The notes below the pieces were generated by a model. It ran no database searches, had not been told where the DNA came from, and saw nothing but the letters and a program-made list of their open reading frames with translations. A stretch of DNA of 64,000 nucleotides from Haloterrigena sp. KLK7 (lineage in GTDB: Archaea; Halobacteriota; Halobacteria; Halobacteriales; Natrialbaceae), in NCBI RefSeq assembly GCF_037914945.1, contig NZ_CP149787.1, positions 3,100,001 to 3,164,000 on the forward strand. Direction: 5' to 3'. Below, piece after piece: positions 54,164 to 58,582 of this stretch (position 1 is its first letter; the number at the start of each line of letters is the position of its first letter). Position numbers and translations under genes: made by a program.

Positions 54164-54802
54164 TTAGTCGTCTTCCGTCTCGGTATCGAGATCGATCGAG
54201 ATCGATTCGGCGTCGGTCTCGTTCGACGATTGCGTGACGACGGTCGAACTGCTGGTGACCGACGAACTGGACGTCGTCGACGACGTCGACTGGGTCGACT
54301 GCGAGACGCTGGTGCTGCCGCTCTCATCCGTTTCGCTCGTCGACGTGACCGTCGACGTCGACGTCTGCGTGCCGTCCTCGGAGACCGACGTCACGGAGAG
54401 CGAGACGTCGTTGTCGGCGTCGACGATCACGTCGACGTCAGTCGCACCGGTGTCGGAATCAGTCGCGTGGATCACGACCCCCCACGGGAACGTCTCGACG
54501 TCCGCGTCGTCCGCAGTCGCCTCGTTCGGATAGTCGTCCGTCGCGTCGGGAACTGTCATCGTCGAGATCGAGACGTCGGACTCGGCTTCGACCGTCACGT
54601 CGACAGCGACGGCACCGGTCTCTGAGTCGTTTTCGTAGGTTACCGTGCCCCACGGGAATTCGGTTTCTGTCATGTTTTCTGAAGTGTTCTCGGTCGAATC
54701 GGTCGCGGGATCGTCGGGCGCAGCGATCGCCGCTGCACCCACGGCGACGACCGCCGCTGCCGCGAGTCCGATCGTCAGCGCCATCGCGGTTCGTCGGTTC
54801 AT
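54164..54802 (-). CDS. Secreted protein with two FPWG repeats and a Ser/Thr tail, unknown
   Basis: 212 residues. Signal-like start MNRRTAMALTIGLAAAAVVA. Two similar units of about 38 residues, starting at 49 (FPWGTVTYENDSETGAVAVD) and 105 (FPWGVVIHATDSDTGATDVD), are 56 residues apart, each a short beta region. Residues 141-212 are almost all S/T/D/E with no structure, a likely glycosylated stalk. It precedes the repeat-protein genes on the same strand but is separated from them by 373 bp. Confidence 0.65.
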   Translation of the reverse strand: MNRRTAMALTIGLAAAAVVAVGAAAIAAPDDPATDSTENTSENMTETEFPWGTVTYENDSETGAVAVDVTVEAESDVSISTMTVPDATDDYPNEATADDADVETFPWGVVIHATDSDTGATDVDVIVDADNDVSLSVTSVSEDGTQTSTSTVTSTSETDESGSTSVSQSTQSTSSTTSSSSVTSSSTVVTQSSNETDAESISIDLDTETEDD

Positions 54803-55175: not shown

Positions 55176-55559
55176 CTAGAAGCTGAAGTCGACTTCGAAT
55201 TCGTTCTCGGCTTCCTGGTCGATTTCGCCTTCGTTCTCGGCTTCGACATCACCAATCTGCGCGTTCTGGTTGGTCTGGTCTAGCGAGTTCGAGGCAGTGG
55301 CGCTACCGCCGTCGTCCGCGTACGCGGCGTTACCGCCCTGCACTCCGACGTTCGACTGCGACACGTACTGTTCCTGCTCGAGCTCCGCTTCCGCATACTG
55401 GTTGAGGTCCGCGTCTTGGTTAATATCCTGTTCGAGCAGGTCACTGGAGTCAGCTCCATCGTCACCGGAGTTGGTGTCGTCAGCTGCAGCCACACCGCCT
55501 GCGAATACGAAGCTACACGCCAGTGCGATCGCCAGCAGCATCGAGATTGCGCGTTTCAT
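55176..55559 (-). CDS. Small secreted Q/N-repeat protein, copy 2 (curli-like unit)
   Basis: 127 residues. A Sec-type signal (MKRAISMLLAIALACSFVFA, cut near residue 26) leads to an acidic linker. Residues 44-54 are a weak motif (QDINQDADLNQ). The main motif pair is QYVSQSNVGVQ (64-74) and NSLDQTNQNAQ (91-101), with the end Gln 27 residues apart, matching the unit in the 504-residue protein at 57068. The tail is acidic with FEVDFSF. It is co-transcribed with copy 1, 6 bases upstream. It is probably extracellular. Confidence 0.75.
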   Translation of the reverse strand: MKRAISMLLAIALACSFVFAGGVAAADDTNSGDDGADSSDLLEQDINQDADLNQYAEAELEQEQYVSQSNVGVQGGNAAYADDGGSATASNSLDQTNQNAQIGDVEAENEGEIDQEAENEFEVDFSF

Positions 55560-55565
55560 TGTTGA

Positions 55566-55955
55566 TTAGTTGTTCCAGCTGAAGTCGACTTCGAATTCGT
55601 TCTCGGCTTCCTGGTCGATTTCGCCTTCGTTCTCGGCTTCAACCTCACCGACCTGCTGGTTCTGGTTGGTCTGGTCTAGCGAGTTCGAGGCAGTGGCGTC
55701 ACCGCCGTCGTCCGCGTACGCGACGTTACCGGCCTGCAGTCCGACGTTCGACTGCGACACGTACTGTTCCTGCTCGAGCTCCGCTTCCGCATACTGGTTG
55801 AGGTCCGCGTCTTGGTTAATATCCTGTTCGAGCAGGTCACTGGAGTCAGCTCCATCGTCACCGGAGTTGGTGTCGTCAGCTGCAGCCACACCGCCTGCGA
55901 ATACGAAGCTACACGCCAGTGCGATCGCCAGCAGCATCGAGATTGCGCGTTTCAT
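55566..55955 (-). CDS. Small secreted Q/N-repeat protein, copy 1 (curli-like unit)
   Basis: 129 residues. The signal peptide and first half (to residue ~73) are identical to copy 2. The motif pair is QYVSQSNVGLQ and NSLDQTNQNQQ with 27-residue spacing. The C-terminus FEVDFSWNN differs from copy 2. It is the first gene of a tandem pair with a 396-bp period. The start ATG is complementary to 55953-55955. Confidence 0.75.
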   Translation of the reverse strand: MKRAISMLLAIALACSFVFAGGVAAADDTNSGDDGADSSDLLEQDINQDADLNQYAEAELEQEQYVSQSNVGLQAGNVAYADDGGDATASNSLDQTNQNQQVGEVEAENEGEIDQEAENEFEVDFSWNN

Positions 55956-57067
55956 GGTTGATCAATGGGCACCCACACACGCATGGACGCTCGAGCACCA
56001 CTTGAGCCACCGAAACGATTCGCGTCGCTCAGCCTGCGAATCCGGCCGTCTCGAGCGTCCAACGCGCCGTGTTGCCCAGTCGGGACAACAGCCGGGTTCC
56101 GTATTAAACCGCCCAACGGTTACGATGTATAGCCGATATTGCGGAAAGTTACAATCGTTAGATCGGGTTGGAAATCTAACTGGAACAGTGCAATATTTAC
56201 GCGGAACGGGATAGAGATTCGCTACTACTGGAATTTCCCGCTGAACTGATCCCGCGCCGTCTTCGAAATAGGTCGTGTAGATCGGCTGTAACTTTCGTCG
56301 CGACGCCGTAATAGTCTCTGGGACGAGAACAGTTCATCGCCGTGAACGAGCGTGCGCTCATCGAGATCGGCGGTCCGACGGCCTCGAGGACCGATCGATC
56401 ACCGCTTCGATGCAGCGTGATGGCGGTATCGTCACGCACACTCCCGATAGCGATCATCTCGCGAGAGGCGCTGATCCGGCGACGGTAACGGGTCAGCCGA
56501 CTTCGAGCGCGGTGGCCCCCGTCTCCGGCGCTGATCGTCGCCGTCCTGTTCTCGGGCCGTCCGGGCGAGCGTCGGACTGCATCGCGTCGGGAGGGGCCTC
56601 GATCGCACCCACAGCAGCCGGCGAGCCGTTCCGATCGCGGCCGTCGCCCGAATCGGAGTCTCCTCGCGATCGATAGCGGCCCGTCACATTCACTGTCACT
56701 TCCTGCGCGCTGGATCTCCTTTCGGTCGTGGAACAGTCATTCGAACAATAATATCGCCAGTAGTCTCGGATTTCGTTGTCGAAAGAGGGTCTCAAAGGGG
56801 CGAATTTCGAACGAATCCCGACTGCAGCGGTATTTCGCGCGTCGATCCGGCGACACCGCCGGACGGCGGCGGTACGTAATCGGCCGTATGAGCCGGTCGT
56901 CAGGCGGTGGTAGAGGGTAGTTTCCCAGAGTAGAGAGCGAGTTCCAGTTAGTAGGCCGACTGATACGTATTCCAACCTGTCGATAACAAAGTCTATCATC
57001 CAGAAAGGACCGTTCGCGTCGAATCGTTCGGCACAAAACAAAATCAAGAGCGAAAATCAGAGTCAAC
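55956..57067. other. Large intergenic region between the repeat-protein genes
   Basis: About 1.1 kb without a gene I can support. Several frames are open on both strands, but none has a family motif, a promoter at a sensible distance, or haloarchaeal codon preference along its length. The last 70 bases before 57068 are A-rich and probably hold that gene's promoter. This is large for such a dense region, so a small RNA or old gene could be hidden. Confidence 0.5.
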
Positions 57068-58582
57068 ATGATAGACGAAAACGAGAGACGATCACGATAT
57101 ACGACAGTATTGATGGCCTGTATCGTTTCCATATCGATGCTGGCCGCCGGCGCGCCCGCCGCGATGGCCGGTGGAACCGACGACGCGGACGCGGACACGG
57201 TCCACGCCCTCGAGGACGGTGAAGACCTCTATCTGGTCTTCGGCGCCGATCTCGACGGGATGAGCCTCGAGGAGTACATCGAGGCGCACGCGTCCGACGA
57301 GCTGGAGATCGACCAAGAGAGCAACACCGAGGTCATCCAGCACCAGAACGTCAGTCAGGTAAACATCAACGAGCAGGGCGAGGCGGTGTCGATCTCGATC
57401 GACGGCGGCGAGGCGACCGCCATTCAGGAGGCCAACCAGATCAACGCCAACGCCCAGACCGGCGACGCCTCGTCCAAGAACGACGCCGTCAGTAGTCAGA
57501 CGACGCAGTTCGAGGACGTCGGGAACGTCACCCTGATCATGGGCAACGGCGACGGCCAGCAGTTCGAGGGCTGGGGCGTCACCGACGAGAGCGGTGAGAA
57601 GGAGACGATCACGCAGTCGGCCGAGGCCAGCGTGACCCAGACGCAGGCCGTCGCCCAGGGGAACTACAACGAACAGAGCACGGCCATCGCCTTCGCTGCC
57701 GAGAACAGCACCGCGACCGCCCTCCAGCAGACCGACCAGTACAACGAGAACCGTCAGGAGGGCGCGGCCAACGCGACGAACGTCTACATCGGAGAGGGCG
57801 AGTACGCCGAGCAGAACGCGAACGCCTGGCTCACGCAGGAGCAGGCCGTCGAACAGCGGAACATCAACGAACAGGGCGCCGCCGTCGCCATCGCCGTCGG
57901 CGAGAACAGCACCGCGACCGCGATTCAGGTCACCGATCAGACCAACCTCAACGAACAGGTCGGCTCCACGAACGCCGCGAACCTGATCGCGTCGATGGGT
58001 GACATGAACATCGCGTCCGCCGGCGACAGCAGCGTCGTCGACACGAAAACGCCCCACGAGGGCAAGAAGGACAAGGGCGACTCGCAGTCCGCGACCACCA
58101 GCGTCGATCAGGAGCAGGCCGTCGAGCAGCTCAACGTCAACCTGCAGAACACGGCGGTGGCCGTCGCGATCAACGACAGCGAGGCCGAGGCCGTCCAGAT
58201 GGCCTCTCAGCAGAACTACAACGCCCAGATCGGCTCCGCCGCTGCGCTCAACGTGTACGCGTCGCCGGGATTCAACTACGACTCGGCATCGCAGACCACG
58301 AGTACGACCGTCACCGTCGGCGGTGACGACGTCGAGAACGCGCCGGGCGTGTCCTACGACTACGACACCAGCGCCAACCAGACGAGCGAGGTCACGCAGG
58401 ACGCGACGGCCGCGCTCGAGCAGACGCAGTTCGTGACCCAGCAGAACGTCAACGAGCAGCACTCGGCGATCGCCGTCGCCGAAGACGACGGAAGCGCCGC
58501 CGCGACGCAGGTGAGCATGCAGGAGAACGAGAACGTCCAGATGGCCGCCGTCGCCGCGACGAACGTCTGGATCGCGCCGTAA
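57068..58582 (+). CDS. Secreted protein with ten Q-x3-Q-x-N-x-N-x-Q motifs, curli-like
   Basis: 504 residues. Sec signal, with cut near residue 34 (PAAMA). The mature part holds five units, each a pair of motifs with the end Gln at 103/130, 203/230, 269/297, 360/387 and 464/491. All ten copies fit Q-x3-Q-x-N-x-N-x-Q, for example QAVEQRNINEQ and QVTDQTNLNEQ. Between the pair lies a run such as AVAIAVGENSTATAI with alternating Ala/Val. The acidic, Ser/Thr-rich linkers between units vary. Alternation of Q/N with hydrophobics is what a stacked beta-arcade or amyloid would need. No named family is recognised. It is probably an extracellular fibre or surface-layer-associated protein. Confidence 0.85.
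   Translation: MIDENERRSRYTTVLMACIVSISMLAAGAPAAMAGGTDDADADTVHALEDGEDLYLVFGADLDGMSLEEYIEAHASDELEIDQESNTEVIQHQNVSQVNINEQGEAVSISIDGGEATAIQEANQINANAQTGDASSKNDAVSSQTTQFEDVGNVTLIMGNGDGQQFEGWGVTDESGEKETITQSAEASVTQTQAVAQGNYNEQSTAIAFAAENSTATALQQTDQYNENRQEGAANATNVYIGEGEYAEQNANAWLTQEQAVEQRNINEQGAAVAIAVGENSTATAIQVTDQTNLNEQVGSTNAANLIASMGDMNIASAGDSSVVDTKTPHEGKKDKGDSQSATTSVDQEQAVEQLNVNLQNTAVAVAINDSEAEAVQMASQQNYNAQIGSAAALNVYASPGFNYDSASQTTSTTVTVGGDDVENAPGVSYDYDTSANQTSEVTQDATAALEQTQFVTQQNVNEQHSAIAVAEDDGSAAATQVSMQENENVQMAAVAATNVWIAP

Follow-up and report, generated by a model that had tools for sequence, protein, structure and literature searches.

The locus described here belongs to a 64,000-nucleotide window (the whole stretch of DNA analyzed) from Haloterrigena sp. 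KLK7 and combines a large gene for a repetitive protein with two small genes on the opposite strand, as follows:

55176..55559, minus strand: second small single-unit protein, 127 aa, a tandem copy (94% identical); unit HMM E 8e-14
55566..55955, minus strand: small secreted-looking single-unit protein, 129 aa; unit HMM E 2e-14 (alignment A3)
55956..57067, no strand: divergent intergenic region of 1.1 kb between the small and large genes
56982..56994, plus strand: conserved upstream element GATAACAAAGTCT, about 87 nt before the large-gene start codon
57068..58582, plus strand: large five-unit Q/N protein of 504 aa with an ATG start, predicted to be cross-beta; leader, N-terminal mini-domain and five units, from ORF, motifs, homologs and AlphaFold2 (AF2)
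57320..57487, plus strand: unit 1, residues 85-140
57620..57787, plus strand: unit 2, residues 185-240
57818..57988, plus strand: unit 3, residues 251-307
58091..58258, plus strand: unit 4, residues 342-397
58403..58570, plus strand: unit 5, residues 446-501, with only 3 residues remaining before the protein end

The defining feature of the large protein is the strict motif Q-x3-Q-x-N-x-N-x-Q, of which a preliminary description of this DNA had reported ten copies and of which we count exactly ten, in five pairs, starting at residues 93, 120, 193, 220, 259, 287, 350, 377, 454 and 481. The offsets within the pairs (27, 27, 28, 27, 27) agree with the spacing of 27 or 28 given there, and the linkers between the units of 56–57 aa, at 44, 10, 34 and 48 aa, match its range of about 10 to more than 40 residues. 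Since 2000 shuffles of the protein's own residues yield on average 0.0025 motifs, with a maximum of one, the pattern is not an effect of composition. Five units are present in all 56 aligned full-length homologs, with a unit length of 54–57 aa (50 in one case) and linkers ranging from 6 to 79 aa; in one protein (L097) the unit HMM scored a sixth unit-like stretch. Most orthologs terminate 2–5 residues past unit 5, with no C-terminal cap there, and in two homologs (L072 2016-3857 and L078 7998-9941) the C-terminal end is a PGF-CTERM surface anchor. The N-terminal mini-domain is conserved among homologs, and by eye the first linker seems to repeat a short motif, vYLvFGad...l..Wv, from the N-terminal region. 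The N-termini are hydrophobic and leader-like on inspection; with the PGF-CTERM of the two homologs, this makes the large protein very probably a secreted one.

Pooling about 280 units from the 56 homologs resolves the architecture of a single unit into two halves. The first reads A-x-A-x-V-x-Q-x-Q-x-V-x-Q-x-N-x-N-x-Q, followed by two free residues and A-x-A-x-A; after a Gly/Asn/Asp/Ser turn, the second reads A-x-A-x-Q-x-S-x-Q-x-N-x-N-x-Q-x-G-x-A-x-A-x-N. The alternate positions are Q at 98–100%, N at 84–100% or A/G/S at 89–100%, with D/E at 0–2%, and the x positions that form the other face are variable and often Asp/Glu, up to about 50% D/E. The alternation of Gln/Asn at every second residue that had been pointed out in the one protein is thus near-invariant across the family. 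Going by sequence, this is how a beta-strand with a buried amide/alanine face and an acidic, brine-facing face would look. Same-numbered units from different species resemble each other more closely (59%) than do different units within one protein (45%), implying an ancient set of five in which each unit is specific to its position.

AF2, supplied with the 504-aa protein and a 56-row alignment, returned five models with pLDDT ranging from 32.9 to 62.7, the best having a mean pLDDT of 62.7 and a pTM of 0.57. The five units mostly attain pLDDT 85–95, each comprising two long strands of about 20–33 residues; the leader, the N-terminal region and the linkers are of low confidence, and 200 residues are disordered. 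That the pTM reaches 0.57 despite these 200 residues argues for the units being placed relative to one another. In a Foldseek search of the PDB three of the four matches were functional amyloids (FapC twice, CsgA), none of the four being significant (E 0.3–2.5, TM about 0.06), and VIA-align superposed 93 model residues, spanning 88-492, on Pontibacter CsgA (8c50) at 2.5 Å with a Z of only 2.9; viral models gave no significant Foldseek match. The pTM and the weak CsgA alignment together suggest stacking. We accordingly read the models as follows: each unit is very probably a two-stranded beta-arch or hairpin, and the five are probably stacked in one rod, the predicted fold as a whole being likely but not established. 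The beta-arch structure first proposed from the Gln/Asn alternation is therefore supported as regards the predicted long paired strands, but the model is a moderate one and a replicate with a distant, short-linker homolog from Haladaptatus (L077) reached a pLDDT of 43, which is low confidence. Neither the globular nor the wholly disordered outcome that had been named as counting against a fibrous protein was obtained in AF2, with structural evidence of moderate strength.

The two small proteins had been described as single-unit paralogs of the large one. The unit HMM recovers both, as listed above, but neither contains a copy of the 11-residue pattern in its strict or relaxed form. For a wider view of the locus we counted secreted-looking ORFs with Q-x-N-x-[NSGD]-x-[QV] no more than 6 kb away from the large gene at 56 loci: 41 such small genes lie upstream (at 30 of the 56 loci, 40 of the 41 being divergent) versus 2 downstream, a conserved divergent arrangement. 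About half of the large-gene loci have no small gene nearby by the tests used. Clear single-unit proteins by HMM occur in Haloterrigena, Natronorubrum, Haladaptatus, Halegenticoccus and others, and those of Natrinema and Natrialba are more diverged. As to an origin of the small proteins from one given unit, the best-matching unit varies. In the small proteins of Natrinema (L045 4389-7422, minus strand) the half-unit motifs seem by eye to be swapped in order, as in a circular permutation, and on the chromosome of Haladaptatus salinisoli (L100 7878-9861, plus strand) there are five tandem single-unit genes away from the large gene. At 54164-54802 the minus strand encodes a secreted-looking protein that is rich in Ser/Thr and contains two repeats of the FPWG type, each about 45 aa long, and its gene adjoins the small genes in close relatives too (L042, L043/L044, L054). 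Downstream of the large gene the order hypothetical gene, radB, CBS-domain gene is kept in many carrier genomes, and the large gene is hence an old resident of the locus.

Within the genus, identity across the divergent intergenic region is about 81% and exceeds 90% in blocks close to the small genes; its several partly open frames include none that is convincingly coding or conserved, and it has no Rfam match. An element GATAACAAAG(TCT) lies 85–99 nt ahead of the start codon in most orthologs, often within an inverted repeat ACAGA-n8-TCTGT. The 13-mer form at this locus is found in a single copy in this genome, allowing up to 1 mismatch, and is apparently a dedicated element.

By protein search, 87 of the 392 Halobacteriales genomes sampled carry the large protein, nearly all of these 87 being Natrialbaceae with a few from three other families; the carriers include Haloterrigena, Natrinema, Natrialba, Natronorubrum, Halobiforma, Halopiger, Halostagnicola, Halovivax, Haladaptatus and others. 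Across 393 phylum genomes the unit profile matched nothing beyond the Halobacteriales, and the viral contigs searched contain no relatives. Two further matches were set aside, one (G000 C1:2134419) as low-complexity Asp/Asn sequence and not a family member, the other (L101, Elusimicrobia) as due to chance, being partly within a kinase-like frame. Pfam and NCBIfam searches gave nothing relevant for the large protein family, and sequence-profile searches of the PDB gave nothing relevant for the large or the small proteins; public records label the large protein "hypothetical protein", and our literature search found no paper or experimental data on the five-unit family. The family is thus without a name, as first supposed, and the same searches matched no known non-fibrous family. 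The Haloterrigena genome also codes for a paralog, 44% identical to the large protein, whose leader is of the Tat type and whose tail is rich in Lys; such tails, found in this paralog class, are unusual in an acidic haloarchaeal proteome. The class mostly lacks small single-unit neighbors.

Taken together, the best overall explanation, to which we assign a probability of roughly 0.5, is that the large protein is secreted and has a structural role at the cell surface or in the matrix, being built of stacked beta-arches and perhaps polymerizing with the single-unit subunits. Briefly, we advance the following plausible mechanism. The large protein would be exported to the cell surface or extracellular matrix, where each 56-aa unit would fold as a beta-arch or hairpin with the invariant Q/N/A/V ladder on one face and an acidic face meeting the brine. 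The five units would then stack, one rung each, into a cross-beta rod resembling a beta-solenoid, from which the variable linkers loop out, as in FapC. As most orthologs end directly after unit 5, the edge beyond it would be left open for added molecules or for the divergently encoded single-unit proteins. In the resulting fiber the small proteins would be co-subunits, with the large protein providing the scaffold or nucleating the assembly. The odds of polymerization into fibers, alone or with the small proteins, are about even; the large protein may be amyloid in nature, and it may have a role in biofilm or matrix. A more specific version, which we hold only tentatively and which follows the nucleator/subunit pair first proposed, is that of a two-component functional amyloid that evolved independently in archaea and forms the hypersaline biofilm matrix of a large haloarchaeal family, with a five-rung Q/N-ladder nucleator/scaffold, single-rung extending subunits and a possible beta-arch of double width, a form that curli and Fap do not show.

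The known system closest in design to this fiber model is FapC of Pseudomonas, with a fixed repeat number, conserved Asn/Gln, stacked layers and long flexible linkers; FapC and CsgA both feature stacked repeats with conserved Asn/Gln hydrogen-bond networks (PMC12822426). FapC was also the top, non-significant Foldseek match (E 0.3), but it is bacterial and has three Greek-key repeats as against the five 56-aa units here, and profiles A1 and A3 recovered no FapC chain at E <= 10 from the PDB, which includes FapC. Judged by these comparisons, the resemblance to the fibers of bacterial biofilms is one of design, not descent. Among archaea, the amyloid-like sheath protein SH of Methanospirillum hungatei resembles the model in being extracellular and in its pair of facing beta-sheets, which beta-arches connect (PMC10593813); it differs in having six different arches, a helical cap and antiparallel sheets, and the 393 phylum genomes, a sample that may not include Methanospirillum, provide no homolog of the unit outside Halobacteriales. 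Biofilms of Haloferax volcanii stain with amyloid dyes, the responsible protein being unidentified (PMC4180959). For such a role the five-unit family offers a conserved, testable candidate in dozens of cultured haloarchaea, with large and single-unit components and an apparently dedicated upstream element built in. Its predicted acid-outside, amide-inside design suits saturated salt and, if the fiber model is true, the functional amyloids would gain a repeat that arose independently in archaea, and with it a very salt-stable fiber scaffold.

The main rival, possible but somewhat doubtful in our view, holds that the large protein is a non-polymerizing, monomeric beta-solenoid at the surface, with five rungs, capped, and either attached to the S-layer or in association with it, serving as an adhesin or a binder of polysaccharide or DNA, the small proteins being independent single-rung binders. 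Such a protein would accord with the fixation of five units in every species, with the PGF-CTERM of two homologs and with the conserved N-terminal mini-domain, which could serve as a cap; further, the Lys-rich tails of the paralog class could bind acidic surfaces. The Tat-type leader of the paralogs, which reads RRGYLK, implies export of a folded protein and not of an unfolded amyloid precursor, and so also counts against amyloid. What speaks for the fiber model over this solenoid is the uncapped end of most orthologs, 2–5 residues after unit 5, and the small proteins themselves: a lone single unit is unlikely to be stable as a solenoid and would need stacking.

It is considerably less probable that the large protein is intrinsically disordered, with a low-complexity or prion-like sequence rich in Q/N and no ordered repeats. 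Its Q+N content of 18%, the low-confidence linkers and the poorly modeled distant homolog would fit this, but unit length and the alternate positions hardly vary from genus to genus and the units are modeled as strands at a pLDDT of about 90.

Membership in the curli (CsgA/B) family, suggested by the secreted-looking repeats with alternating Q/N/A and by their number, five as in E. coli CsgA, is most improbable and is excluded by curli's own defining repeat profile: Curlin_rpt (PF07012) has no match in the 504-aa protein (E <= 10), in the 56 members (E <= 1) or genome-wide, whereas curlin-repeat proteins of sister species score as well as E 2e-45. The period is 56, not 19–23, with a motif offset of 27–28, as anticipated when the repeat was first set apart from that of curli, and profile comparison aligns the leader region only. 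CsgG (PF03783) too has no match in this genome at E <= 1, control genomes giving matches, but this is a weak criterion because archaea are without an outer membrane. CsgA and CsgB resemble the large protein in their Q/N-rich repeats and, going by what is predicted for it, in secretion and the strand-turn-strand form of the repeats; the pair of a large and a small gene sets the haloarchaeal side apart. The sister-species proteins come from four genomes of the same genus:

L034 1300-2037, minus strand: curlin-repeat protein (PF07012)
L035 994-1617, plus strand: curlin-repeat protein (PF07012)
L036 1357-2037, minus strand: curlin-repeat protein (PF07012)
L037 1078-1701, plus strand: curlin-repeat protein (PF07012)

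These are true curlin-repeat proteins with a leader and ten repeats, and the Curlin_rpt search of the whole KLK7 genome found no counterpart. The gene is followed by a conserved one for a 258-aa secreted-looking protein without a Pfam match. Although the repeats, at 19 aa, have no detectable profile relation to those of the five-unit family, the two occur in the same genus and have in common a leader peptide and alternating N/A/V/Q with charged positions between.
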